From the NCBI GenBank assembly GCA_030622125.1, contig JAUXGM010000027.1:1-18353 (forward strand): a DNA stretch of 18,353 bases, read 5' to 3'. This DNA is from a bacterium (lineage in GTDB: Bacteria; AUK180). The translations under genes and the position numbers were made by a program. This document shows positions 2,631-18,257 of the stretch, piece after piece. The notes under the pieces are model-generated. The model was not told the DNA's origin, searched no databases, and was given only the letters and a program-made list of their open reading frames with translations. Position 1 is the stretch's first letter; every line of letters begins with the position of its first letter.

Positions 2631-3452
2631 ATGAAAAAGATATTTTTAACGATTTTAATGACCTTTATGGGATTAGTCCTGTTTGCTATTCAAAATGTTG
2701 AGATTATAAATCCTAAAATGGGGACAGTAAAAATAGAAAACAGATATTGGGGAATGGTAACATCAGACGAAATAGTATCGGTTGTTTCAAAATTCCCCGG
2801 TAGGATCAGTAGTGCCTATAAAAACGAAGGCGACCGTATTGAGAAAGGTGAACTTTTATATAAGGTAGATCGGGAATTAACGGGAATGAAGTATAATCTA
2901 ATAGAAGAACGATCTCCGATCTCTGGGATCATTATTAAAAAAAGTGCCAGTGAAGGACAATTGATTGGTCCCTCTATGCCGGTTTATACAATAATCAATG
3001 ATAAAAAGTTATTTATTTCAATATCTATTTTTTCAGAGGAAATAGAAGAAATAAAGAATGCAAAAGGAATAATTCTAACAAAAAATGAGAAGAAATATTC
3101 AGGAAAATTATATAGGATCGTTCCATTTGGTGATCCGATGACGGGAATGATCACTGCAAAATTCAATTTTAATAAATTAAAACTTATTCCTTATGAAAGG
3201 GTTGCTGTTGATATTATTCTAAAAGAAAAAAAAGGGATTACCCTTCCTATTTCCACTATTTTGACGGATAGAGATGATAATTACTATGTTTTTACGGTAA
3301 GGAATGGCAAAGCAGTAAAAACAATTATTACACTCGGACTTCAAAATGAATATGCTGCCATTATAGAAACGGGGATCACCACAAAGGATAAAGTGATAAG
3401 CATCGGTGCGCACATTGTCAAAGACGGCGAAGAAGTTAATATTGTTAAATAA
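2631..3452 (+). CDS. RND periplasmic adaptor (membrane fusion protein) lacking the alpha-helical hairpin
   Basis: A 273-residue protein with a signal sequence (about residues 1-19, no lipobox cysteine). The first lipoyl half-motif is at about 47-80 (SKFPGRISSAYKNEGDRIEKGE, shown in part), and the second at about 94-122 (SPISGIIIKKSASEGQLI). Only some 13 residues separate them, whereas usual adaptors place a coiled-coil hairpin of tens of residues there. The beta-barrel and membrane-proximal domains follow (ILPISTILTDRD-type region near 200-215 and a C-terminal strand ending GEEVNIVK). Usual adaptors are about 350-400 residues, and the difference is mostly the hairpin. GGGAGGT lies five bases upstream of the ATG. 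The position between the TolC-like and RND genes confirms the role. With no hairpin, contact with the TolC-like tunnel must be made differently, as described for Borrelia BesA. Confidence 0.9.
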   Translation: MKKIFLTILMTFMGLVLFAIQNVEIINPKMGTVKIENRYWGMVTSDEIVSVVSKFPGRISSAYKNEGDRIEKGELLYKVDRELTGMKYNLIEERSPISGIIIKKSASEGQLIGPSMPVYTIINDKKLFISISIFSEEIEEIKNAKGIILTKNEKKYSGKLYRIVPFGDPMTGMITAKFNFNKLKLIPYERVAVDIILKEKKGITLPISTILTDRDDNYYVFTVRNGKAVKTIITLGLQNEYAAIIETGITTKDKVISIGAHIVKDGEEVNIVK

Positions 3453-3461
3453 AGGTAATAT

Positions 3462-6400
3462 ATGAAAATATCCGAATTTAGTGTTAAAAAACCTATCACA
3501 ACCATAATGATATTCTTACTGATTTTGATTTTAGGTATACTTGCCTTTAAAAATCTGCCGCTTGATATTATGCCTGATGTAGAGCTTCCTACAATTACGG
3601 TAATGACATTATATCCCGGGGCAAGTCCGGAGGATGTTGAAAAGAAAGTATCGGAACCACTCGAAAGAATATTATCAACAGTAAGCGGGATAAAATATGT
3701 AAGTTCTACTTCAATGGAAAATATGTCTATGATAATGATCTTTTTTAATTGGGGAACGAATACTGATGAGGCAGCAAACAATTTACGAGCGAACCTTGAT
3801 ATGTCAAGTTTCTTTCTTCCCGAAGAGGCACAAAAACCAATGCTCTTTAAATTTGATATGTCAATGATCCCAATCAATTTTTGGGGCATAGAGATTGATA
3901 GATCAGTAAAGCATCAATATAGTTTTATAAAAAAGAATATAGTTGATCGATTAATGCGTTTGAAAGGAGTTGGTTTTATTGCAATAGATGGTATTGAAGA
4001 AGATATGGTTGCTATTTCTCTTTCTCAGAAAAGACTTGAAAAATATGGACTTTCACTTGGAATGGTTCAGCAGCTTTTATCCGAATACAATGTTTCTATT
4101 CCCGGCGGCAGTATGGATATCGGCAGAAAATATATTGTATTAAGAACATCCGGTGAATTTGATAATATTTCCGATATTGGGAAAATACCACTTATTAGAA
4201 TGGGACCGAAAACCGTTTTTTTAAAGGACATTGCAAATGTTAAATTTACTCCGAAAAGAGATATTATTGCAAAAGCATATATCAATGGAAAACCGGGAGC
4301 AGTTTTAATGGTACAAAAAGCCAGCGGTGAAAATACAATTCAAGTTTCCGAAACAGTACAAAAAGAAGTAAAAGAAATTGAAAAGGACCTAAGTGGTAAG
4401 GCAAAACTAAATCTTGTAATGGATATGGCGGAAATAATTAGTATGAGATTAAATAATCTGAAAAACACACTTATAATCTCAATTATCCTGATCATTCTCA
4501 TTGTTACGATCATGTTAATGAATTTTCGGGGTTCAATTATTATTGCATTATCCCTACCTTTTTCTTTGATCATTTCATTTGTTTTTATGTATATCTTCGG
4601 GTACACAATCAATATGATGACAATGGCGTCTCTTATAATAGCAGCAGGTATGATCGTTGATTCGGCAATCGTTATATTTGAAAATATCTATCGTCATCAT
4701 TATGTTATGGGAGAACCGTTAAAAGCATCTGCAATATTTGCCCCAACAGAGGTTGGTATGGCGGTAACCGCTTCTATTATAACGACAGTTGCAATATTTT
4801 TCCCGTTAACATTTATGGGCGGATTGATAGGTGTAATGTTCAAACAATTAGGAATGATGGTTACAATAGTTCTTTTGGCATCACTTATTACAGCATTAAC
4901 ATTGATCCCTGCACTTACTTTCTTTATACTTCCCAAAAAGAAAAAAGAGACAAATACGCAATTAAAAGTTAGAACATTCTGGACTAATTTTGGAGAAAAA
5001 ATAGGTACATTTGTTAAGAAAACATTAAATAAAGGCGGTCTCTGGATCAGTGGTTTTGCCTTGATTTTTATTATTTCTCTTGCTTTACTTATAAAGATTC
5101 CAAAGGAATTTATGCCGACAATGGATATGGGACGAATTCAGGTAGATGCGGATCTACCGACATTTGTAAATATTGATGAAACAGAAAAAATCGCTGTAAA
5201 GATTGAAAAACTTATTGAAAAAAATATACCGGAAAAAAATATATATTTAACTTCAATAGGTTCAAGTCAAAGCGGCATGATACCCATGATGAATCCGAAT
5301 AAATTATCGATTTCAATAAAACTTCTTGAAGATCAAAATAAAAGACGAACGAGTGATGAGATATCCAATCAGTTAAAAGAACTCATTAAGAAAAATATTC
5401 CCGGAATAAAAGATTTTTCCGTTGATTCCGGCGGAATGGCTTCTATGCTTATGGGTTCGGAAAGTGGTGCAGTATTAGAGATATATGGCGAAGATTTGGA
5501 ATATATGCACAAGGTCGCAAAGATATGGAAAGAGAAACTGTCAAAAAATAAAATGGTTCGAAATGTTGATATAAATTATGAAACAGGAAAAAAAGAGATC
5601 CAAATAATACCAAAATACGGAAGAACGGCAGAATTAGGACTAACGCCCGCTCAGATCGGAAGGGTTATCAGAACGGTACTTTACGGTTCAAAGGTTGGAA
5701 CATACAGAAAGCAGGGTGATGTTTATGATATCCTTTTAAATTATGATAGAAATGAATTTCCTGATATTTCACATTTGAAAAATCTTATAATTACATCCCA
5801 GTCGGGCAAAAAATTTCGTCTGGGAACCCTAATTGACATAAAGGAAAAAGTAGGACCTGTTTCTATTGAAAGAAAAGATAGAGAAAGAATGATCAAGGTA
5901 ACAACAATCCTTAAAAATTCAAAATATACCGGAAAGATTACAAAAATAATTAAAAATGAAATGAAAAAAGAAAAATTTCCGGGTATAATCTATAAAATTG
6001 GTGGTGCGGCAAAGGATATGCAGGATTCATTCAAAACACTTTTCCAAATACTTGCATTTGCAATATTATTGGTCTTTATGGTAATGGCTTCACAGTTCGA
6101 ATCGTTTAAAGAACCTTTTATTATTATGTTCTCGGTGCCCTTTGCTTTTACGGGGGTTGTATTATCTCTATTGATCACAAAAACAACATTGTCGGTAAAT
6201 GCAATGATGGGGCTTATTATGCTTGTGGGAATCGTTGTCAATAATGCCATTGTTCTTGTTGATTATATAAATATTTTACGAAAGCGGGGAATGGAATTGA
6301 AAGAATCTATACAAATAGGTGTGCAAACTAGATTAAAACCTATTCTGATGACCGCTTTGACAACTATTTTCGGAATGCTCCCGCTGGCACTTGCAACCGG

Positions 6401-6545
6401 AAGAGGGTCTGAAATATGGAAGCCGATAGGTATTACGGTTATCGGTGGTCTTTTAGTTTCAACTCTTATTACACTTATATTGATCCCGAATATTTATTAT
6501 ATATTTGAGAAGAAAAGTAAAGTAAATAAGAAAGCAATTTATTAG
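3462..6545 (+). CDS. RND-family efflux permease (HAE1/AcrB-like)
   Basis: A 1027-residue inner-membrane transporter, close to the usual 1030-1050. It has the expected duplicated layout: TM1 (about 11-30), a first periplasmic domain containing YPGASPEDVEKKVSEPLE, TM2-6 (about 330-485), a loop, TM7, a second periplasmic domain, and TM8-12 near the C-terminus. TM4 contains GMIVDSAIVIFENI: Asp400 is kept but the next residue, an Asp in AcrB, is Ser401. TM10 has GIVVNNAIVLVDYI, with Asn928 at the position of the AcrB lysine. RLKPILMTALTTIFGMLPLAL is a hallmark near the end. It works as a trimer with the adaptor and TolC-like protein to expel compounds using an ion gradient. It starts nine bases after the adaptor stop, with AAAGG upstream. 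Substrates are unknown; the clade looks drug/lipophile-type rather than heavy-metal. Confidence 0.95.
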   Translation: MKISEFSVKKPITTIMIFLLILILGILAFKNLPLDIMPDVELPTITVMTLYPGASPEDVEKKVSEPLERILSTVSGIKYVSSTSMENMSMIMIFFNWGTNTDEAANNLRANLDMSSFFLPEEAQKPMLFKFDMSMIPINFWGIEIDRSVKHQYSFIKKNIVDRLMRLKGVGFIAIDGIEEDMVAISLSQKRLEKYGLSLGMVQQLLSEYNVSIPGGSMDIGRKYIVLRTSGEFDNISDIGKIPLIRMGPKTVFLKDIANVKFTPKRDIIAKAYINGKPGAVLMVQKASGENTIQVSETVQKEVKEIEKDLSGKAKLNLVMDMAEIISMRLNNLKNTLIISIILIILIVTIMLMNFRGSIIIALSLPFSLIISFVFMYIFGYTINMMTMASLIIAAGMIVDSAIVIFENIYRHHYVMGEPLKASAIFAPTEVGMAVTASIITTVAIFFPLTFMGGLIGVMFKQLGMMVTIVLLASLITALTLIPALTFFILPKKKKETNTQLKVRTFWTNFGEKIGTFVKKTLNKGGLWISGFALIFIISLALLIKIPKEFMPTMDMGRIQVDADLPTFVNIDETEKIAVKIEKLIEKNIPEKNIYLTSIGSSQSGMIPMMNPNKLSISIKLLEDQNKRRTSDEISNQLKELIKKNIPGIKDFSVDSGGMASMLMGSESGAVLEIYGEDLEYMHKVAKIWKEKLSKNKMVRNVDINYETGKKEIQIIPKYGRTAELGLTPAQIGRVIRTVLYGSKVGTYRKQGDVYDILLNYDRNEFPDISHLKNLIITSQSGKKFRLGTLIDIKEKVGPVSIERKDRERMIKVTTILKNSKYTGKITKIIKNEMKKEKFPGIIYKIGGAAKDMQDSFKTLFQILAFAILLVFMVMASQFESFKEPFIIMFSVPFAFTGVVLSLLITKTTLSVNAMMGLIMLVGIVVNNAIVLVDYINILRKRGMELKESIQIGVQTRLKPILMTALTTIFGMLPLALATGRGSEIWKPIGITVIGGLLVSTLITLILIPNIYYIFEKKSKVNKKAIY

Positions 6546-6554
6546 GAGAATATT

Positions 6555-6845
6555 ATGAGTAAAAAGGGAATTCTTATTATTTATAACATTGTTTTAGGTG
6601 AACAAATAGAGGATATGATCAAAAAATGTGATATTGATGAGTTCACAATATTTAATAATGTTATTGGAAAGGGTACCGGGGGCGGTGCCCGATTCAATAA
6701 TGATGTTTACCCGGGAATGAATAATGCGTTATTTATTGCCCTTGACAAAAAAGATAAGTTCGAGGAATTCAGAAAATCGGTAGATGAATTTAAGAAAAAA
6801 TACAAAAAAGATGGAATAACCTATTTTATTTTACCGGTAGAATAA
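6555..6845 (+). CDS. PII-like small protein, last gene of the RND operon
   Basis: A 96-residue soluble protein with no signal peptide. The predicted order is beta (4-11, GILIIYNI), alpha (14-25), beta (28-36), a flexible Gly/Asn-rich loop (37-56, containing GKGTGGGARFNND), beta (57-63), alpha (65-84) and beta (87-95, ITYFILPVE). This ferredoxin-like order, the length and the end resembling the PII strand ending in -FVLPVE point to the PII/CutA-like superfamily. The loop falls where PII proteins carry the T-loop, which touches membrane transporters, and Tyr52 lies within it. AGGAG overlaps the RND stop codon, so it is cotranslated with the permease. An accessory or regulatory contact with the pump's cytoplasmic face is an inference. 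DUF3240-type PII-like proteins beside metal RND pumps are the nearest analogy I recall; the exact family is uncertain. Confidence 0.7.
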   Translation: MSKKGILIIYNIVLGEQIEDMIKKCDIDEFTIFNNVIGKGTGGGARFNNDVYPGMNNALFIALDKKDKFEEFRKSVDEFKKKYKKDGITYFILPVE

Positions 6846-6860
6846 ATACAAAGGTTAATC

Positions 6861-6886
6861 GTAGGGGTAAACCTATGTGTCTACCC
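6861..6886 (+). repeat. GTAGGGG-type intergenic palindromic element
   Basis: The sequence GTAGGGGTAAACC, then TATGTG, then TCTACCC can fold with GGGTA pairing to TACCC. It matches, from memory, a widespread intergenic motif of the form GTAGGGGCGAACC-t-TGTGTTCGCCC found in many unrelated genomes. It starts 15 bases after the PII-like gene's stop codon. I found only one copy in the window. Confidence 0.5.
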
Positions 6887-6945
6887 AATGGAAATGGTGG
6901 GAATACAGAGGGTGAAGGTGAAGGTACTGAGGCTCGCCCCATTCT

Positions 6946-6987
6946 GTCATTATGAGCTTTCACGGAGTGAAAGCGTAATAATCTCAT
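6946..6987 (+). repeat. REP-like palindromic element, copy 2 (plus orientation)
   Basis: Starts GTCATTATGAGC and ends GCGTAATAATCTCAT. The inner hairpin is GCTTTCAC (6956-6963), loop GGA, GTGAAAGC (6967-6974). Outer bases ATTAT (6949-6953) and ATAAT (6978-6982) can also pair. It is followed directly by a T run (6987-6992), so it might also end transcription of the efflux operon. It resembles the widespread GTCATTGCGAG...GCAATCTCAT element known from memory. Copy 1 is at 716-758 in the opposite orientation. Confidence 0.8.
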
Positions 6988-7008
6988 TTTTTATTTGATT
7001 GGCGTAGA

Positions 7009-7056
7009 CATATATGCGAATATGCGAATATGCATATATGCGAATATGTGCATATA
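7009..7056. repeat. Array of six degenerate 8-bp repeats
   Basis: The 48 bases divide into CATATATG, CGAATATG, CGAATATG, CATATATG, CGAATATG, TGCATATA. The 16-mer CATATATGCGAATATG occurs exactly twice (7009-7024 and 7033-7048), 24 bases apart, which is three octamers. Several units are self-complementary (CATATATG, TGCATATA/ATATGCATAT). Confidence 0.8.
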
Positions 7057-7075
7057 ACGAAATTATAAAATTCCC

Positions 7076-7104
7076 TTGAATTAATTTCCAAAAAGTCTTA
7101 TAAT
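7076..7104 (+). promoter_or_regulatory. Possible promoter firing toward the minus-strand gene (antisense)
   Basis: TTGAAT (7076-7081), 17 bases, then a perfect TATAAT (7099-7104). No credible gene follows on this strand; a transcript starting near 7111 would run antisense into the gene that ends at 7214. In AT-rich DNA such a match may be chance. Confidence 0.35.
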
Positions 7105-7213
7105 AATAAAACAAATATTTAACGGGATATTGGAGTTCATTGATACGGGGATTAAAGAAGTAGTAATGATTAGAAGTTATCTGAAATCAATTCTGGAAAT
7201 CGGGGACGGTGAT

Positions 7214-8377
7214 TTACAAATCTTTCTGATCTGCCGTAGGACACAATTCTTTATATATCCTTTTTACCCGTGCAATGTTGAACTTACCTTGTCTTGTTAT
7301 TACAGTTACTTTTGTTATTCCAATTTTAACCGTGTCGTAAATATCTTTGTTTATCTTTATTTTTTCCGTTTTTCTATTTGTTCTCCACGATTGGGTTATG
7401 AGATAATAGGTATTGCCGGAATCTTTGCTGTGTTTATAATCTTTATCCAGCACCACTATTGTATTAATGGAATCACTTGACTTATCAAGGTAACCATTTA
7501 AATTCCTTACTGCTGTATAGGTTAGTATGGTAAACATTATCGGAACCAACAATAAAAGTGGTAATATTGTTTTATGAGCATCCGACCTGCCTTTTAGTTT
7601 TAATACTGCAAAGGCAATATAAAAAATGGAAAGAGATATAGATATTTTCAATGTAAATAAAATAAGTTCCATCCAATTAAGTGGTGTCCACCCATCGTTA
7701 AATAAAGCCAGGACAATTACTCCGGGTACTATAAGAAGTATTGGTATTAGAAGGAAAAGAACCTCAACAGGGGTTTTTATTTTAGTATCTTCTGGTGAAA
7801 TTTCTTTGGACATTCCTTTAACATTTTTTAAACCGTCGGCAAGTGTATATAAATTGGAAATGATATTTTGAACATCTTCATTATTGATATCTTTAATATT
7901 AGCCGGGCTTTTTGATATCCTTATCTGCGAAACATTACCTGTATGTCCAAATGAAATGTGATTATATCCCAGAGCATAAATAGATTTGATTGCTTCTCTT
8001 ACTTTCTGATCAAGGTAATTCAAAACAATATCTCCATCCATAGTATTAAGGTAGAACATCTTATCAAAATCAGGATCATTGACCTGAATTTCTTTTGAAA
8101 ATGCTATCTTTTTAAAAAAGCCGTCAACTTTTGATTCAGCTGTAATTTCAAGATTAAAATTTACCGGTATTTTCAGTATAAGTGAAATGGATGATGGAAC
8201 ATTTTTACTACCGGGAGAATAGCTAAATGAATATTCATTGCCTTTATAATTTCCATTATAGTTTTTCAATTTTTCAGATAAAGCTTTCATTCTCTTGTTT
8301 GCTTTTACGACAAAAAAGATTGCAAGACCAATGCACAAAGGCATAGTGATAAATACCATTATCAAATACATTTCCAT
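7214..8377 (-). CDS. Four-TM membrane protein of unknown function
   Basis: A 387-residue protein I do not recognise by name. Residues 4-24 form an N-terminal membrane segment, followed by a charged linker. A soluble alpha/beta domain (about 45-190) contains NDPDFDKMFYLNTMDGDI and YLDQKVREAI; this D-P-x-FD-x-x-F pattern followed by a helix resembles regions of large uncharacterised bacterial membrane proteins of the DUF3137 kind, a similarity from memory only. Three more membrane segments lie at about 203-226, 236-260 and 269-290. The C-terminal part (about 300-387) looks like a small beta-rich domain (YYLITQSW, IKINKDIYDTV, KVTVITRQGKF). The start has a good promoter 20 bases upstream but only a weak ribosome site; the third codon, also ATG, is an alternative. 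It is a single gene, divergent from lptD and convergent with the efflux operon. Confidence 0.8.
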   Translation of the reverse strand: MEMYLIMVFITMPLCIGLAIFFVVKANKRMKALSEKLKNYNGNYKGNEYSFSYSPGSKNVPSSISLILKIPVNFNLEITAESKVDGFFKKIAFSKEIQVNDPDFDKMFYLNTMDGDIVLNYLDQKVREAIKSIYALGYNHISFGHTGNVSQIRISKSPANIKDINNEDVQNIISNLYTLADGLKNVKGMSKEISPEDTKIKTPVEVLFLLIPILLIVPGVIVLALFNDGWTPLNWMELILFTLKISISLSIFYIAFAVLKLKGRSDAHKTILPLLLLVPIMFTILTYTAVRNLNGYLDKSSDSINTIVVLDKDYKHSKDSGNTYYLITQSWRTNRKTEKIKINKDIYDTVKIGITKVTVITRQGKFNIARVKRIYKELCPTADQKDL

Positions 8378-8397
8378 AGCATCTACTTTTTAAATAT

Positions 8398-8426
8398 ATT
8401 TTAACAAAAGAAAGAGTTGAAGTCAA
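8398..8426 (-). promoter_or_regulatory. Promoter of the minus-strand membrane protein gene
   Basis: On the minus strand TTGACT (8421-8426), 17 bases, then TAAAAT (8398-8403). The expected start is about 8391, leaving a leader of only about 13 bases before the ATG at 8377. Its -35 box lies 18 bases from the -35 box of the divergent lptD promoter. Confidence 0.75.
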
Positions 8427-8444
8427 GAATCTGTCGTAATGAAT

Positions 8445-8473
8445 TTGACAAAAAACCCAATATTTTGTAGAAT
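8445..8473 (+). promoter_or_regulatory. lptD operon promoter, placed for a leaderless or near-leaderless mRNA
   Basis: TTGACA (8445-8450), 17 bases, TAGAAT (8468-8473). Only seven bases separate the -10 box from the ATG at 8481, so transcription would start at or beside the start codon. No purine-rich ribosome binding site precedes this ATG, unlike tetR, the adaptor gene and the deaminase gene. Confidence 0.8.
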
Positions 8474-8480
8474 TTTAGAT

Positions 8481-11400
8481 ATGAAGCGGATTATTACCAT
8501 TATTATTTTATCTCTGTTTATTATTTCGACAGCCGAAGAGATTGAATTTTCCGGAAAGAATATAAAAATAACAGAACTCAAAGATGGATATAGATATTTT
8601 ATTTCTTCCGGTGTTATCGAATCCGAACTCAATTACACTGTCCACGGCAATGACATTACCATAATCACCGATCAAGAAAATAATTACAAATTCTCCACCG
8701 CTAAAAAAGTAATTTATGAAAAAAAAGAGGAGCATTATCTTGCGGTATCCAATGGTATCTCTTATAATTCAGCAAAAAAACGGGGGAAATTGTTTGCACC
8801 CGTTAAGGTATCAAATCCCGATGGGGTTTTAAACACCAAAGAAGATATTGATATTATAGGTGAAAAACTTCATGGCAATGGCAAATTTACTTATCAGGGG
8901 AAAGATCAAATCTTTGGAAGCGGAGAAAAATTTTCTTACGACGGTTCAACGATAATTGTAAAAAAAAATGGTTACTTCAAAAATAAGGATACGGAATTTT
9001 ATTCGGATGATGCAACCTACAAAATTAAAAAACAAATTTTAAAAATAAATAAAAACGGCATCGCAAAATTAAAGGATGGAGATCTCAAATTTAAAAATGG
9101 GATTTACAATTTTAGAAACGGGAGATTAAGAGGAAATAACTTTTCATTTACCGGAAAGATCAAGCTCATCGGAAATGATTTTGACGGCATTTTAACTGAT
9201 GGGAAATTACAAAAATTCAGTATAGAAAAGGAACCGAAGATCTATATTGATAAAGCGGAGATCACGGGAGATAAGATAAAAGGAAATGAGGAATTCGCAG
9301 AGGTTATCGGAAACCCTAAAATAGATATTGTTAATGATACTTTTTTAATTACCCTATATCCGGAAGACCTGATCTATGATATTAAGAAAGGTAATTCTTA
9401 TTGTAAAGGTAAAATTTTAGGAGAGGACAGCGACAATAATATCTACTATGGAAGGGATCTCACTTTATACAGAGATAGTCATTTTGTTATTGAAAAAAAC
9501 TTTTATATGTATAACAACGATATGCTGATTTCCGCAAAAAAGGTTATCGGTGATAGCACCAATTTTACTCTTTTAAATGACGGTTATCTCTACTATGATA
9601 AGGATCAAAGCGAGATATTCTTTGAACGGGCGGAAATTCCTGATATTAAAAAAAAATATGTTCGATCTCCTAATATACTCCTAATAAAAAAAGATGAATT
9701 CGCAAAAGCTGAAAATGTTGAAATAAAGGAAGAAAAGAATGAAAAAAGGGTCATCGGTGAAAAGCTTAAATTCTATTCAAAAAAAAATAATGTTTTCATA
9801 AAAAGCGATAGATTCAAACTTTACAATGATATAATGGTTTTTCCGGAAAAAGCAGTTGTATACCAGACAAAAAGCAAATTGACAACCGATTTTGATACAT
9901 CAACAATGAAGGTAGATCAGCGAATTGATGTGGAAAGAGGTTACTATGACAGTAAAGAGAAAAAATTAGTAGGAAACGGCATACGCACAAAGCAAGATCA
10001 ATGGTATATAAGATCAAAAATCGTTGATATTGTCGAAAATTCTACCCTTTATCTTAAAGATGCAATAGTAACAACCTGTGAACTTGATGTTCCGCATTAC
10101 TATTTTTTTGTTAAGAACCTAAAAATTATTAAAGATGACAAATTGATGTTCAAGAACGCTTTTTTATATGTTGGCAATCTTCCTATTCTCTATCTTCCAT
10201 TTTACATAAGAGATATAAATCCGGATAACGGACCGCTTGTTACATATATCGGTAGAGATGCTTATAGGGGTTATTTCGTAAAAAATGTATATACAATAAG
10301 ACCGAAATTTTGGGGGTTCAGACCGAAACTAAAACTTTTTCTTGATTATATGACAGAAACTGATATTGGAAGCGGATTCAATTTTGATTATAAATTAAAA
10401 ACAGGCAATGGAAGGCTTTTCTATTACTTTAATCGGGATTGGAATAATCTTTTTATAAAGAACAGCAGCTATCGGGATATTAGCAAGATACAGGGAAACA
10501 TAAATCAGAATGTAAAGGGTTTTAAGATCATCGGAACTATTGACAAATCGAATTCAACCTTTATAAATAAATACTTTTCAGAATTCGAGCAGGTGATAAA
10601 TCAAAAGGAATTCGTGAATCAGATTACTATAACTCGAAATTTTAAAAAATATCTTTACTTTTCATTGGGCTATCGGGAAAGAAAATATATTTATGATACG
10701 GGAACAACAATAGATAAGACACTTCCCGATGTTCGGCTTAATATGAAAACACAAGACCTAAAAATCATTAGGATATCTGCAAATAGTTCATACTATATAA
10801 AAAATGATATTGATAGAGGCGGTCTTGGAGCCAATATAGGATTCAAATCTTTTAATGCACACTATTTTACATTAACTACACGGGTAAATTTTAATGCTAC
10901 ATATACGACATCTACTATAAATGATAAAATTGAATGTTTTACCTATATGCCGCTCTCGGCATCACTTTCATCTTCTGCCTATCGAATTTTTCATCTTGGA
11001 AGTATCAAGTTAAAACATACCATCTCTCCGACAATTTCATTCTCGTATAACGAACCATTGTTTATCCCCGATAGTGAGAACTTCATAGTTGGAAATTCCC
11101 TTTCCTATTTTGAAACAGCGACAAAAGGATTAAACTTTGCTCTCAACAACAGATTTAGTTTAAAGGACGGTAACGGGCAGATAAAAAATATAGGGCAGTT
11201 AAATCTTTCCGGCAATTATGATTTCAAATTAAAAAAGATACCGGCGATAAATGGCTATGCAACATTTATTCCTTTGCACCTGAATTTAAGAGCAGGATAT
11301 AGTTTTCTTACCGAAAAGATCACAAGTTGTAATTTGAGTTTTAATAAGACCTTTCCGAATGGGTTTTCCCTGTATTCCAGTCTAAGCTATTATACACAAT

Positions 11401-11711
11401 TTGTTCAAACTATGCGGCTGAGTTATAAATGTAAAAACTTGACTTTAATGACGAATTTAAGTTACAATTACTATGGGCATAATATTATGAAACGATTTAA
11501 TAAAAGGGAATTATCTGTAAATTTCCCGCTTCACTGTTTTAATCTTAGGTTTCTTTATCAACTTCAATATTATGGGGATTTACCGACCTTAAATAAATTT
11601 TTATTTACGATCTCGATAGGGAAAGTATCGGGTAGTGATCTTAAGATAGAAAGCGATTTTAAAAATAAGGTTTTGAGCATTCTTGGAAATCGTGAACCGA
11701 TGCCGATGTAA
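8481..11711 (+). CDS. lptD: LptD-like outer membrane LPS-assembly barrel with a long N-terminal OstA-like region
   Basis: I place the start at 8481, not the upstream ATG at 8439: the 8481 start gives a signal peptide MKRIITIIILSLFIISTA, and 8439 lies upstream of the promoter. The product is 1076 residues, against roughly 780-900 for many LptD proteins. Residues about 20-530 are a beta-rich repetitive stretch (recurring G-x-x-F/Y strands, e.g. GNGKFTYQGK, LKFKNGIYNF) like concatenated LptA/OstA jelly-roll units. The LptD signature region follows: TTCELDVPHYYF (Cys533) and FLYVGNLPILYLPFYI (about 565-573), then a C-terminal beta-barrel of about 480 residues with alternating aromatic strands. 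It would insert LPS into the outer leaflet together with an LptE partner, not seen here. It heads a co-directional cluster. Some homologues are described as OstA-family proteins; the LptD assignment rests on the signature and layout. Confidence 0.85.
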   Translation: MKRIITIIILSLFIISTAEEIEFSGKNIKITELKDGYRYFISSGVIESELNYTVHGNDITIITDQENNYKFSTAKKVIYEKKEEHYLAVSNGISYNSAKKRGKLFAPVKVSNPDGVLNTKEDIDIIGEKLHGNGKFTYQGKDQIFGSGEKFSYDGSTIIVKKNGYFKNKDTEFYSDDATYKIKKQILKINKNGIAKLKDGDLKFKNGIYNFRNGRLRGNNFSFTGKIKLIGNDFDGILTDGKLQKFSIEKEPKIYIDKAEITGDKIKGNEEFAEVIGNPKIDIVNDTFLITLYPEDLIYDIKKGNSYCKGKILGEDSDNNIYYGRDLTLYRDSHFVIEKNFYMYNNDMLISAKKVIGDSTNFTLLNDGYLYYDKDQSEIFFERAEIPDIKKKYVRSPNILLIKKDEFAKAENVEIKEEKNEKRVIGEKLKFYSKKNNVFIKSDRFKLYNDIMVFPEKAVVYQTKSKLTTDFDTSTMKVDQRIDVERGYYDSKEKKLVGNGIRTKQDQWYIRSKIVDIVENSTLYLKDAIVTTCELDVPHYYFFVKNLKIIKDDKLMFKNAFLYVGNLPILYLPFYIRDINPDNGPLVTYIGRDAYRGYFVKNVYTIRPKFWGFRPKLKLFLDYMTETDIGSGFNFDYKLKTGNGRLFYYFNRDWNNLFIKNSSYRDISKIQGNINQNVKGFKIIGTIDKSNSTFINKYFSEFEQVINQKEFVNQITITRNFKKYLYFSLGYRERKYIYDTGTTIDKTLPDVRLNMKTQDLKIIRISANSSYYIKNDIDRGGLGANIGFKSFNAHYFTLTTRVNFNATYTTSTINDKIECFTYMPLSASLSSSAYRIFHLGSIKLKHTISPTISFSYNEPLFIPDSENFIVGNSLSYFETATKGLNFALNNRFSLKDGNGQIKNIGQLNLSGNYDFKLKKIPAINGYATFIPLHLNLRAGYSFLTEKITSCNLSFNKTFPNGFSLYSSLSYYTQFVQTMRLSYKCKNLTLMTNLSYNYYGHNIMKRFNKRELSVNFPLHCFNLRFLYQLQYYGDLPTLNKFLFTISIGKVSGSDLKIESDFKNKVLSILGNREPMPM

Positions 11712-11723
11712 TCAGGAGAGAAA

Positions 11724-12197
11724 ATGGAGAAAAAGGAAAGACCGAACTGGGATGAATATTTTATGAGAATTACAATAGATGTTGCAAAAAGGTCAACCTG
11801 CCTAAGACGACAGGTCGGGGCAATTATTGTTAGAAAAAATAGAATCGTTGCGACAGGTTATAACGGTGCTCCGAACAAATTACAACATTGTCTTGATCTC
11901 GGGTGTCTAAGGGATCAGTTGAACATTGAATCCGGAACACATCTTGAAATCTGTCGCGGACTTCACGCTGAGCAAAATGCTATTGTGCAAGCAGCACGAT
12001 TTGGTATTTCAACAGATGATGGAATCTGTTATGTCACTCATCATCCCTGTATAATCTGTACAAAACTTTTAATAAATGCAGGTATAACGAGAATTGTATA
12101 TAATGAAGGGTACCCTGATAAAATGGGGCTTTCGGAAAAATTTATAAAAGAAGCAGGAGTAAAAATTGAACAATTTAAAGACAATCTTGATCTATAG
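11724..12197 (+). CDS. dCMP deaminase (ComEB-type cytidine/deoxycytidylate deaminase)
   Basis: A 157-residue cytosolic enzyme, normal for the family. It deaminates dCMP to dUMP, feeding dTMP synthesis. The zinc site is complete: His81 with catalytic Glu83 in GLHAEQNAI, and Cys109 and Cys112 in [12 protein letters not shown]. The substrate-side motif ATGYNGAP and the insert with [16 protein letters not shown] are typical of dCMP deaminases rather than tRNA adenosine or riboflavin deaminases. AGGAG lies a few bases upstream of the ATG, 12 bases after the lptD stop. Its 3' end overlaps the next gene by 32 bases. A nucleotide enzyme inside an envelope cluster is probably a matter of shared transcription rather than shared pathway. 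Confidence 0.95.
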
Positions 12198-16819: not shown

Positions 16820-17619
16820 GAATAACAAAAGTAATACCTTTTATTAAAAGGGATTTTAAAATATTTATCTCCTATCCTATTTCAATGCTCTTTTCATTAT
16901 TATCTATTTTTATAACACTTTTTATCTTTTATTTTCTATCAAAGGTTATCTCGGTCGGCGAAGTGATGGTAAAGTATTCCTCCGATTATTTCTCTTTTGT
17001 TATCATTGGGATTGCCTTTTCCTCCGCTGTTTCAACAGGATTAAATACCATTGTTAGTTCTCTTAGAAATGAGCAGATGAAGGGAACATTTGAAATGCTT
17101 CTTACGGGAAGGTTATCAACGGATGAATTATTACTCGGTTTTCTCTCTTTTAATACACTTTTTGAGGTTGTAAGGCTCATTCTTACACTTCTCTTTGCGA
17201 TACTGTTTTTTGATCTTAAATTGCAGTTTCGGTATTCGTATATATCCGTAATATTTTTGATTTTTACTTTTCTCACCTTTCTCTCTTTTGGTATTATATC
17301 AGCGGGTATAATTCTAATTACAAAAAGGGGAAATCCGCTTGCATTTCTTATAAATCAGTCAATGGTTCTATTTTCCGGCGTTTATTTTCCTTATGAGATA
17401 CTACCGAAATGGTTACGGGTGTTCAGTTATATGTTCCCGACGACTTATGCACTAAAAGGTATTCGCCTAAATCTCTTGAAAGGATATGGATTCTCAATGG
17501 TTTATAAGGAACTTATTATTATGATCATTTTAAGCTTGATTCTTTTTCCACTTTCAATACTCTTTTTCAAATATGCACTTAAAAAAGGCAAAAAATGGGG
17601 CACAATAACCACATACTAA
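16816..17619 (+). CDS. ABC-2 type transporter permease
   Basis: A 267-residue protein with six membrane segments. The family signatures are RNEQMKGTFEMLLTGRLS in the cytoplasmic coupling region (about 90-107) and GVYFPYEILPKWLRVFSYMF followed by PTTYALKGIR (about 190-220), the classic ABC-2 reentrant/TM5 region. A dimer of this protein with two copies of the ATPase encoded upstream would export a lipid-linked, glycolipid, polysaccharide or drug-like substrate. The start overlaps the ATPase stop by four bases. Substrate cannot be read from the sequence; the neighbourhood (LptD, LptF/G, GT-C-like protein) favours an envelope component. Confidence 0.92.
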   Translation: MRITKVIPFIKRDFKIFISYPISMLFSLLSIFITLFIFYFLSKVISVGEVMVKYSSDYFSFVIIGIAFSSAVSTGLNTIVSSLRNEQMKGTFEMLLTGRLSTDELLLGFLSFNTLFEVVRLILTLLFAILFFDLKLQFRYSYISVIFLIFTFLTFLSFGIISAGIILITKRGNPLAFLINQSMVLFSGVYFPYEILPKWLRVFSYMFPTTYALKGIRLNLLKGYGFSMVYKELIIMIILSLILFPLSILFFKYALKKGKKWGTITTY

Positions 17620-18257
17620 TAACTTTATTCTTATTTCTTGCATTAAATTTATCTGCCGACCAGGTTGCGATACCAAGATTAAAATATTCCGGAGGCGGGG
17701 ATTGGTACAATGGAAAAACAGAGATACCGAATCTTTTAATGCGTTTCAAAAAAGAATTCAAGGTTGATGTAAATACCAGAGATTTTTTTGTAACACCCGA
17801 TTCAAAGGAAATATTTAATTATCCAATTGTTTTTGTAACAGGACACGGAAAGATCTCTTTTTCAAATATTGAACGGAACAACCTTAGAAAATACTGTGAA
17901 AATGGCGGCCTTCTTTATATAGACGACGATTACGGAATGGATGAATATATTAGATATGAACTTAAAAAGATATTCCCGTCGAAGGAACTTATTGCTCTTT
18001 CTTCCGATTTTGAACTTTTTCATATCCGGTATAAATTCAAAAAAGGGATACCGCAGATCCATACCCATTATGAAAAACCGCCTATTGCTTACGGAATCTT
18101 CGATGATGACGGCAACTTGATCGTTTTATATACCTACAATACAAATATCTCAGATGGATGGGATTCAAAGGGAGTTCATCCTGAGGATTCTAATGAAAAC
18201 AGAGAACTCGCCATAAAAATGGGAATAAATATTTTACTCTATGCATTGCTGTATTAG
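17595..18257 (+). CDS. Exported DUF4159-family protein
   Basis: A 220-residue protein with a signal peptide (about 1-21, core ILITLFLFLALNLSA, cleavage before DQ). The mature part matches what I know of DUF4159 throughout: PRLKYSGGGDWYNGKTEIPN near the start, PIVFVTGHGKISFS, RKYCENGGLLYIDDDYG, RYELKKIFPSKELIAL, HIRYKF, a late SDGWDSKGVHPED and a closing MGINILLYALLY. The fold is expected to be flavodoxin/glutamine-amidotransferase-like; no function is established. It overlaps the permease gene by 25 bases and ends the cluster. DUF4159 proteins often sit in MoxR/VWA-type envelope operons, so its coupling to an ABC-2 exporter is notable. Its final base is shared with the repeat that runs to the window edge, so the stop codon might be created by that junction. 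Confidence 0.88.
   Translation: MGHNNHILITLFLFLALNLSADQVAIPRLKYSGGGDWYNGKTEIPNLLMRFKKEFKVDVNTRDFFVTPDSKEIFNYPIVFVTGHGKISFSNIERNNLRKYCENGGLLYIDDDYGMDEYIRYELKKIFPSKELIALSSDFELFHIRYKFKKGIPQIHTHYEKPPIAYGIFDDDGNLIVLYTYNTNISDGWDSKGVHPEDSNENRELAIKMGINILLYALLY
17712..17808 (+). repeat. 97-bp exact direct repeat, copy inside the DUF4159 gene
   Basis: Identical, base for base, to 18257-18353. This copy is in-frame coding sequence (residues about 40-71 of the DUF4159 protein). The flanking base on the left differs (T here, A at 18256), so the match begins exactly at the GG. Confidence 0.97.

Follow-up and report, generated by a model that had tools for sequence, protein, structure and literature searches.

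A tripartite RND efflux operon and a fifth, PII-like gene

The stretch of DNA analyzed here, hereafter the window, comprises 18,353 nucleotides of a bacterial contig (GenBank JAUXGM010000027.1) and carries on its forward strand five genes in the order TetR regulator, TolC-type channel, adaptor, RND permease, and PII-like gene. The operon's first gene encodes a TetR-family transcriptional regulator (798–1334; Pfam TetR_N, E 1.7e-16) and is followed by genes for a TolC-type outer-membrane efflux protein (1337–2620; Pfam OEP, E 1e-39), a periplasmic adaptor or membrane fusion subunit (2631–3452; NCBIfam RND_mfp, 104.9 bits with a cut-off of 94.9), and an RND efflux permease (3462–6545; Pfam ACR_tran, 778 bits), the gaps from TetR to permease being 10 nt or less. 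Upstream of the five genes, a sigma-70-type promoter-like site on the same strand (TTGACA-17-TATAAT, 12 of 12 matches, 639–667) was placed by a consensus scan only, which is no evidence of function.

The permease ends in a basic C-terminal tail, KKSKVNKKAIY (6510–6542). Its TAG stop codon (6543–6545) is overlapped by an AGGAG ribosome-binding site (6544–6548), an overlap already noted in an initial sequence-only reading of the locus, and this site sits 6 nt before the ATG of the fifth gene (6555–6845), which encodes a PII-like protein of 96 residues. As the next large ORF (7214–8377) lies on the opposite strand, the PII-like gene is probably the last of the operon. That ORF, which faces the operon end, apparently encodes a membrane protein and gave no significant Pfam family.

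The PII-like protein belongs to the PG0541 family

A search of NCBIfam with the PII-like protein returned a single match, NF045581, the "PG0541 family transporter-associated protein" (E 6.6e-20). The score of 70.9 bits exceeds the curated cut-off of 45, and residues 5–93 of 96 align with positions 2–90 of the 91-position model. Given this match and above-cut-off homologues in 42 other genomes, nearly all directly after an RND permease, the ORF is not a chance reading frame. The Pfam search that the sequence-only reading had proposed gave a divided answer: the window protein itself scores below the gathering cut-off of P-II (PF00543; 19.9 bits, cut-off 25, E 9.5e-4), while, of 36 family members, 23 reach E 0.01 or better with P-II, and relatives in genomes G006, G030, and G153 pass the cut-off. 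The window's genome carries a second, separate P-II gene (G000:C27, 64.5 bits), and direct comparison of its product with the window protein gave a weak match.

Against solved structures, a profile search found a P-II chain at E 6.5e-4. A single-sequence phmmer search of the same set returned mainly FtsZ, which we rejected as chance matches through the glycine-rich loop. Scanning the genome contigs with the PII-like protein alone gave no match, and in alignment A2 no segment was conserved enough to serve as a scan query; scanning with the permease gave eight loci only, four of which were relatives already in the set.

Predicted fold and a distinctive T-loop motif

Using 36 family members as input, we built an AlphaFold2 model of the window protein (mean pLDDT 91.9, pTM 0.82). 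Its predicted order is strand 3–11, helix 12–24, strand 31–36, loop 37–55, strand 56–63, helix 66–82, and strand 88–95, the same β-α-β-loop-β-α-β arrangement that had been proposed from the sequence. Strands 2 and 3 are joined by a loop that is similar in length to the canonical PII T-loop and contains two short strands in the model; the Gly/Asn-rich segment that the sequence-only reading had placed at the T-loop position indeed forms this loop. A short loop leads into the final strand, right after which the modeled protein stops.

Comparison of the model with solved structures pointed to PII-type proteins throughout. In Foldseek, SbtB and CPII lead, the best SbtB being 7r31 (E 3.2e-6). With VIA-align the top match was CPII 5d4n (Z 12.0, rmsd 1.7 over 83 residues), with SbtB and PII next; the best 50 entries were all PII or PII-like, including the DUF3240 protein 3ce8, and GlnK scored Z 11.0 (1gnk) and, in the GlnK–AmtB entry 2ns1, Z 10.4. 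A ferredoxin-like PII fold is thus supported, as a prediction rather than a solved structure, by the P-II matches of relatives, the model, and both structural searches.

Column conservation across the 36 members identified the T-loop (residues 37–56, positions 6663–6722) as the most conserved segment of the family, with G38, G40, R46, V51, W/Y52, P53, G54, and N56 standing out and P53 present in all 36. The resulting motif, GxG...R....[VI]WPGxN, is the family's own and unlike that of canonical PII. Neither the uridylylation-site nor the C-terminal B-loop signature of GlnB/GlnK, in patterns approximating PROSITE PS00496 and PS00638, occurs in any of the 36 members. As the canonical B-loop and the C-terminal PII signature are missing throughout, the family is not predicted to bind ATP and 2-oxoglutarate in the classical way. 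Inspection of the family alignment revealed no conserved set of Cys or His residues.

PG0541 genes recur directly downstream of RND permease genes

In the window's own class, the PG0541 family is present in all seven sampled genomes. Wider samples yielded 42 genomes, besides the window's own, with a match above the cut-off; one was left out because its homologue lies at a contig end. Of the 41 testable genomes, 39, from 26 taxonomic families, have an RND permease gene immediately upstream on the same strand, so that the linkage to RND genes expected by the sequence-only reading holds far beyond the window's genome. The gap between permease and PII-like gene is 45 nt or less in 36 of the 39 linked genomes, and in 19 the two genes overlap; in one linked genome (G169) the permease reading frame is split in two. 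A same-strand TetR gene heads the operon in about 30 of the 39, the permease thus being the more constant neighbor, and among the nine operons without one, some lie on cut contigs. The identical TetR–TolC–adaptor–RND–PG0541 operon is already annotated in records of Bacteroides finegoldii and Parabacteroides distasonis. That reading had named beforehand a non-PII fold and homologues never found with RND genes as outcomes that would speak against it; neither was found, since a PII fold and RND linkage are both supported.

The two exceptions differ from each other. In G153, a strong PG0541 member lies right after a TetR gene (L060, oriented 8016–9189) with no RND pump in the stretch read, while the genome has several RND permeases. 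In G037, a divergent member above the cut-off is flanked by a pair of oxidoreductase genes on one side and a radical SAM/SPASM gene on the other (L024, 5902–9684). Two further, weak matches below the cut-off (G281 and G306) have no RND neighbor.

The pairing is also specific to certain permeases: of 37 other RND permease genes in 24 genomes that carry the PII-like gene, 33 with at least 899 nt of downstream sequence, none has an adjacent PII-like gene.

Gene order varies in a few loci. In L084 (G136, 5214–11925) the PII-like gene is flanked by two RND permease genes and touches both, and in L078, L079, and L080 (G339, G102, and G225) the gene for the outer-membrane channel comes after the PII-like gene rather than ahead of the adaptor gene.

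Type and descent of the partner permeases

The sequence-only reading had called the pump drug-type, and the window permease does score higher with the multidrug (HAE) model NF033617 (687 bits, cut-off 1250) than with the CusA/CzcA heavy-metal model TIGR00914 (402 bits, cut-off 701). As both scores lie below their cut-offs and both models also hit each of the 40 PII-linked permeases scanned, "multidrug-type" denotes a sequence class here and not a substrate.

In a tree of 79 permeases, 25 of the PII-linked ones fall in a fully supported clade of 27, the two clade members without the link being L131 and L132. The PII-link label is clustered on the tree, requiring 11 changes as against a mean of 26.3 in shuffles; smaller groups of PII-linked permeases elsewhere in the tree indicate that the link was gained or lost more than once. 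Within the main clade, PII and permease distances are correlated (r 0.60, with 0 of 5000 permutations as high), which bespeaks shared descent of the two genes and is not by itself proof of contact, as RND and PII also share the species tree.

The last three permease residues, AIY (6534–6542), are invariant in the window's taxonomic family (L018, L019, L020, L021, and L132), while their codons vary. We noted this end as a candidate docking tail for the PII-like protein and do not claim it as such: it is restricted to that taxonomic family and also occurs in L132, a paralogue in G003 with no adjacent PII gene. Its presence in L132 may reflect a docking tail used also in trans.

A proposed mechanism and its alternatives

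RND permeases of the multidrug type are trimers. Control of transporters by PII proteins appears limited to those able to function as trimers (review, PMC10710835), and the SbtB trimer inserts its T-loop into the cytoplasmic face of trimeric SbtA along a shared threefold axis (PMC8352866). By analogy with SbtA–SbtB and GlnK–AmtB, we favor, with some confidence, the reading that the pump is tuned by a PII-like trimer docked on the cytoplasmic side of the trimeric permease; that the protein forms trimers, docks, and responds to a ligand, and in which direction it acts, are all inferred from these two pairs. The PII-like protein would be made by translational coupling from one mRNA with the pump and would be cytoplasmic and probably trimeric; its T-loop would most likely dock on the cytoplasmic face of the permease, along a threefold axis common to both, and the pump would be slowed or freed depending on a small ligand held between the PII-like subunits. 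An adenine nucleotide is a first guess for this ligand, since CPII and SbtB, the nearest solved folds, bind AMP, ADP, or cAMP. Such docking fits the conserved T-loop as well as the coupled order and joint inheritance of the two genes, and allosteric control of the pump from the cytoplasm, which the sequence-only reading had thought conceivable, stands as an analogy with these known pairs.

The PII-like protein could instead act on the operon's own TetR repressor, sequestering it once ligand is bound, much as GlnK sequesters the TetR-family regulator AmtR. TetR genes do head most of the linked operons, and the G153 member, which directly follows a TetR gene with no pump adjacent, fits this reading and counts against docking on the permease. 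We nevertheless regard action on TetR as quite improbable: nine operons (some on cut contigs) lack a same-strand TetR gene while the permease is always present, and the PII-like gene sits at the operon's far end, coupled to the permease.

A role as an accessory of the CutA/DUF3240 kind, that is, a cytoplasmic binder of metal or substrate or a factor for pump assembly or stability and not a nucleotide-gated regulator, would agree with the missing canonical nucleotide motifs, with the shared fold of DUF3240 structure 3ce8, and with the cobalt sensing proposed for PII-NG beside CzcABC (PMC7726332). Set against this, the partner permease scores as multidrug-type and not as CusA/CzcA, and the family alignment holds no conserved Cys/His set, which leaves this role an unlikely one. 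That the gene is an ordinary housekeeping PII copy placed in the operon by chance was disfavored after the neighborhood survey and strikes us as highly improbable; the PII superfamily fold would suit such a copy, but the genome has its separate P-II gene, the RND linkage recurs across 26 taxonomic families, and the canonical signatures are missing in all 36 members.

The retention of the pairing in many unrelated bacterial lineages suggests that such pumps are controlled from inside via a sensor. Whether this widespread family in general gates or governs multidrug-type RND pumps from the cytoplasm, tying efflux to a metabolic or second-messenger signal, we judge to be evenly balanced.

Relation to known systems

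Multidrug resistance is caused in large part by RND pumps, whose known control is mostly transcriptional. If the proposal is true, rapid metabolic control exerted on the pump itself would add a new level of regulation, and the family would gain a mechanism-based name. Its present NCBI name labels it only "transporter-associated," with no mention of the PII fold. The window protein, which scores above the family's cut-off, does not differ essentially from the family, whose operon in B. finegoldii and P. distasonis is the same; the PG0541 gene is present in culturable Bacteroides and Parabacteroides. In the literature searched, PG0541 appears only as a hypothetical protein with no tested function.

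PII-NG proteins have their genes next to those of the heavy-metal RND pumps CzcABC (Sant'Anna 2009, as cited in PMC7726332). They resemble the window protein in being PII-superfamily members encoded with a tripartite RND pump and differ, by gene context, in that their pump carries a metal-exporter annotation and the PII gene comes first, whereas in the window the pump is multidrug-type and the PII-like gene last. SbtB, from the SbtB–SbtA pair, and CPII of Thiomonas are the best structural matches to the model, and the SbtB gene shares an operon with that of its trimeric transporter, on which SbtB docks by its T-loop (PMC8352866). Identity to the window protein is about 15–22%, the transporter is of another family, and the window protein, ending right after its last strand in the model, has no C-terminal R-loop, unlike SbtB/CPII. 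GlnK–AmtB shares the PII fold (predicted here) and the transporter linkage; GlnK has the canonical uridylylation and B-loop signatures that the PG0541 family lacks. AcrZ, YajC, and WatS1 are small accessory proteins that alter RND pump activity (PMC10710835), and AcrZ is a single-helix membrane protein, whereas the window protein is predicted to be soluble and PII-folded.

No work on a PII-like protein acting on a multidrug RND pump turned up in the literature searched, and the portion consulted of a large review of tripartite pumps mentions no PII protein. The sequence-only reading went too far in calling such control "not described" for non-metal RND pumps, given the NCBI name, the annotated operon, and the published PII-NG–CzcABC case (PMC7726332); with the association already annotated and PII-NG beside CzcABC published, novelty is moderate. 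What the present analysis adds is the fold, the extent of the linkage, the permease clade, and the T-loop motif.

Two further ORFs lie outside the operon. A small one upstream (32–355) has a Cys-rich start, TTCDGCPGGN, and possibly encodes a CGGC-type protein, and another near the window's end (17595–18257) encodes a DUF4159 protein (E 3.6e-54) and adjoins apparent ABC transporter genes.
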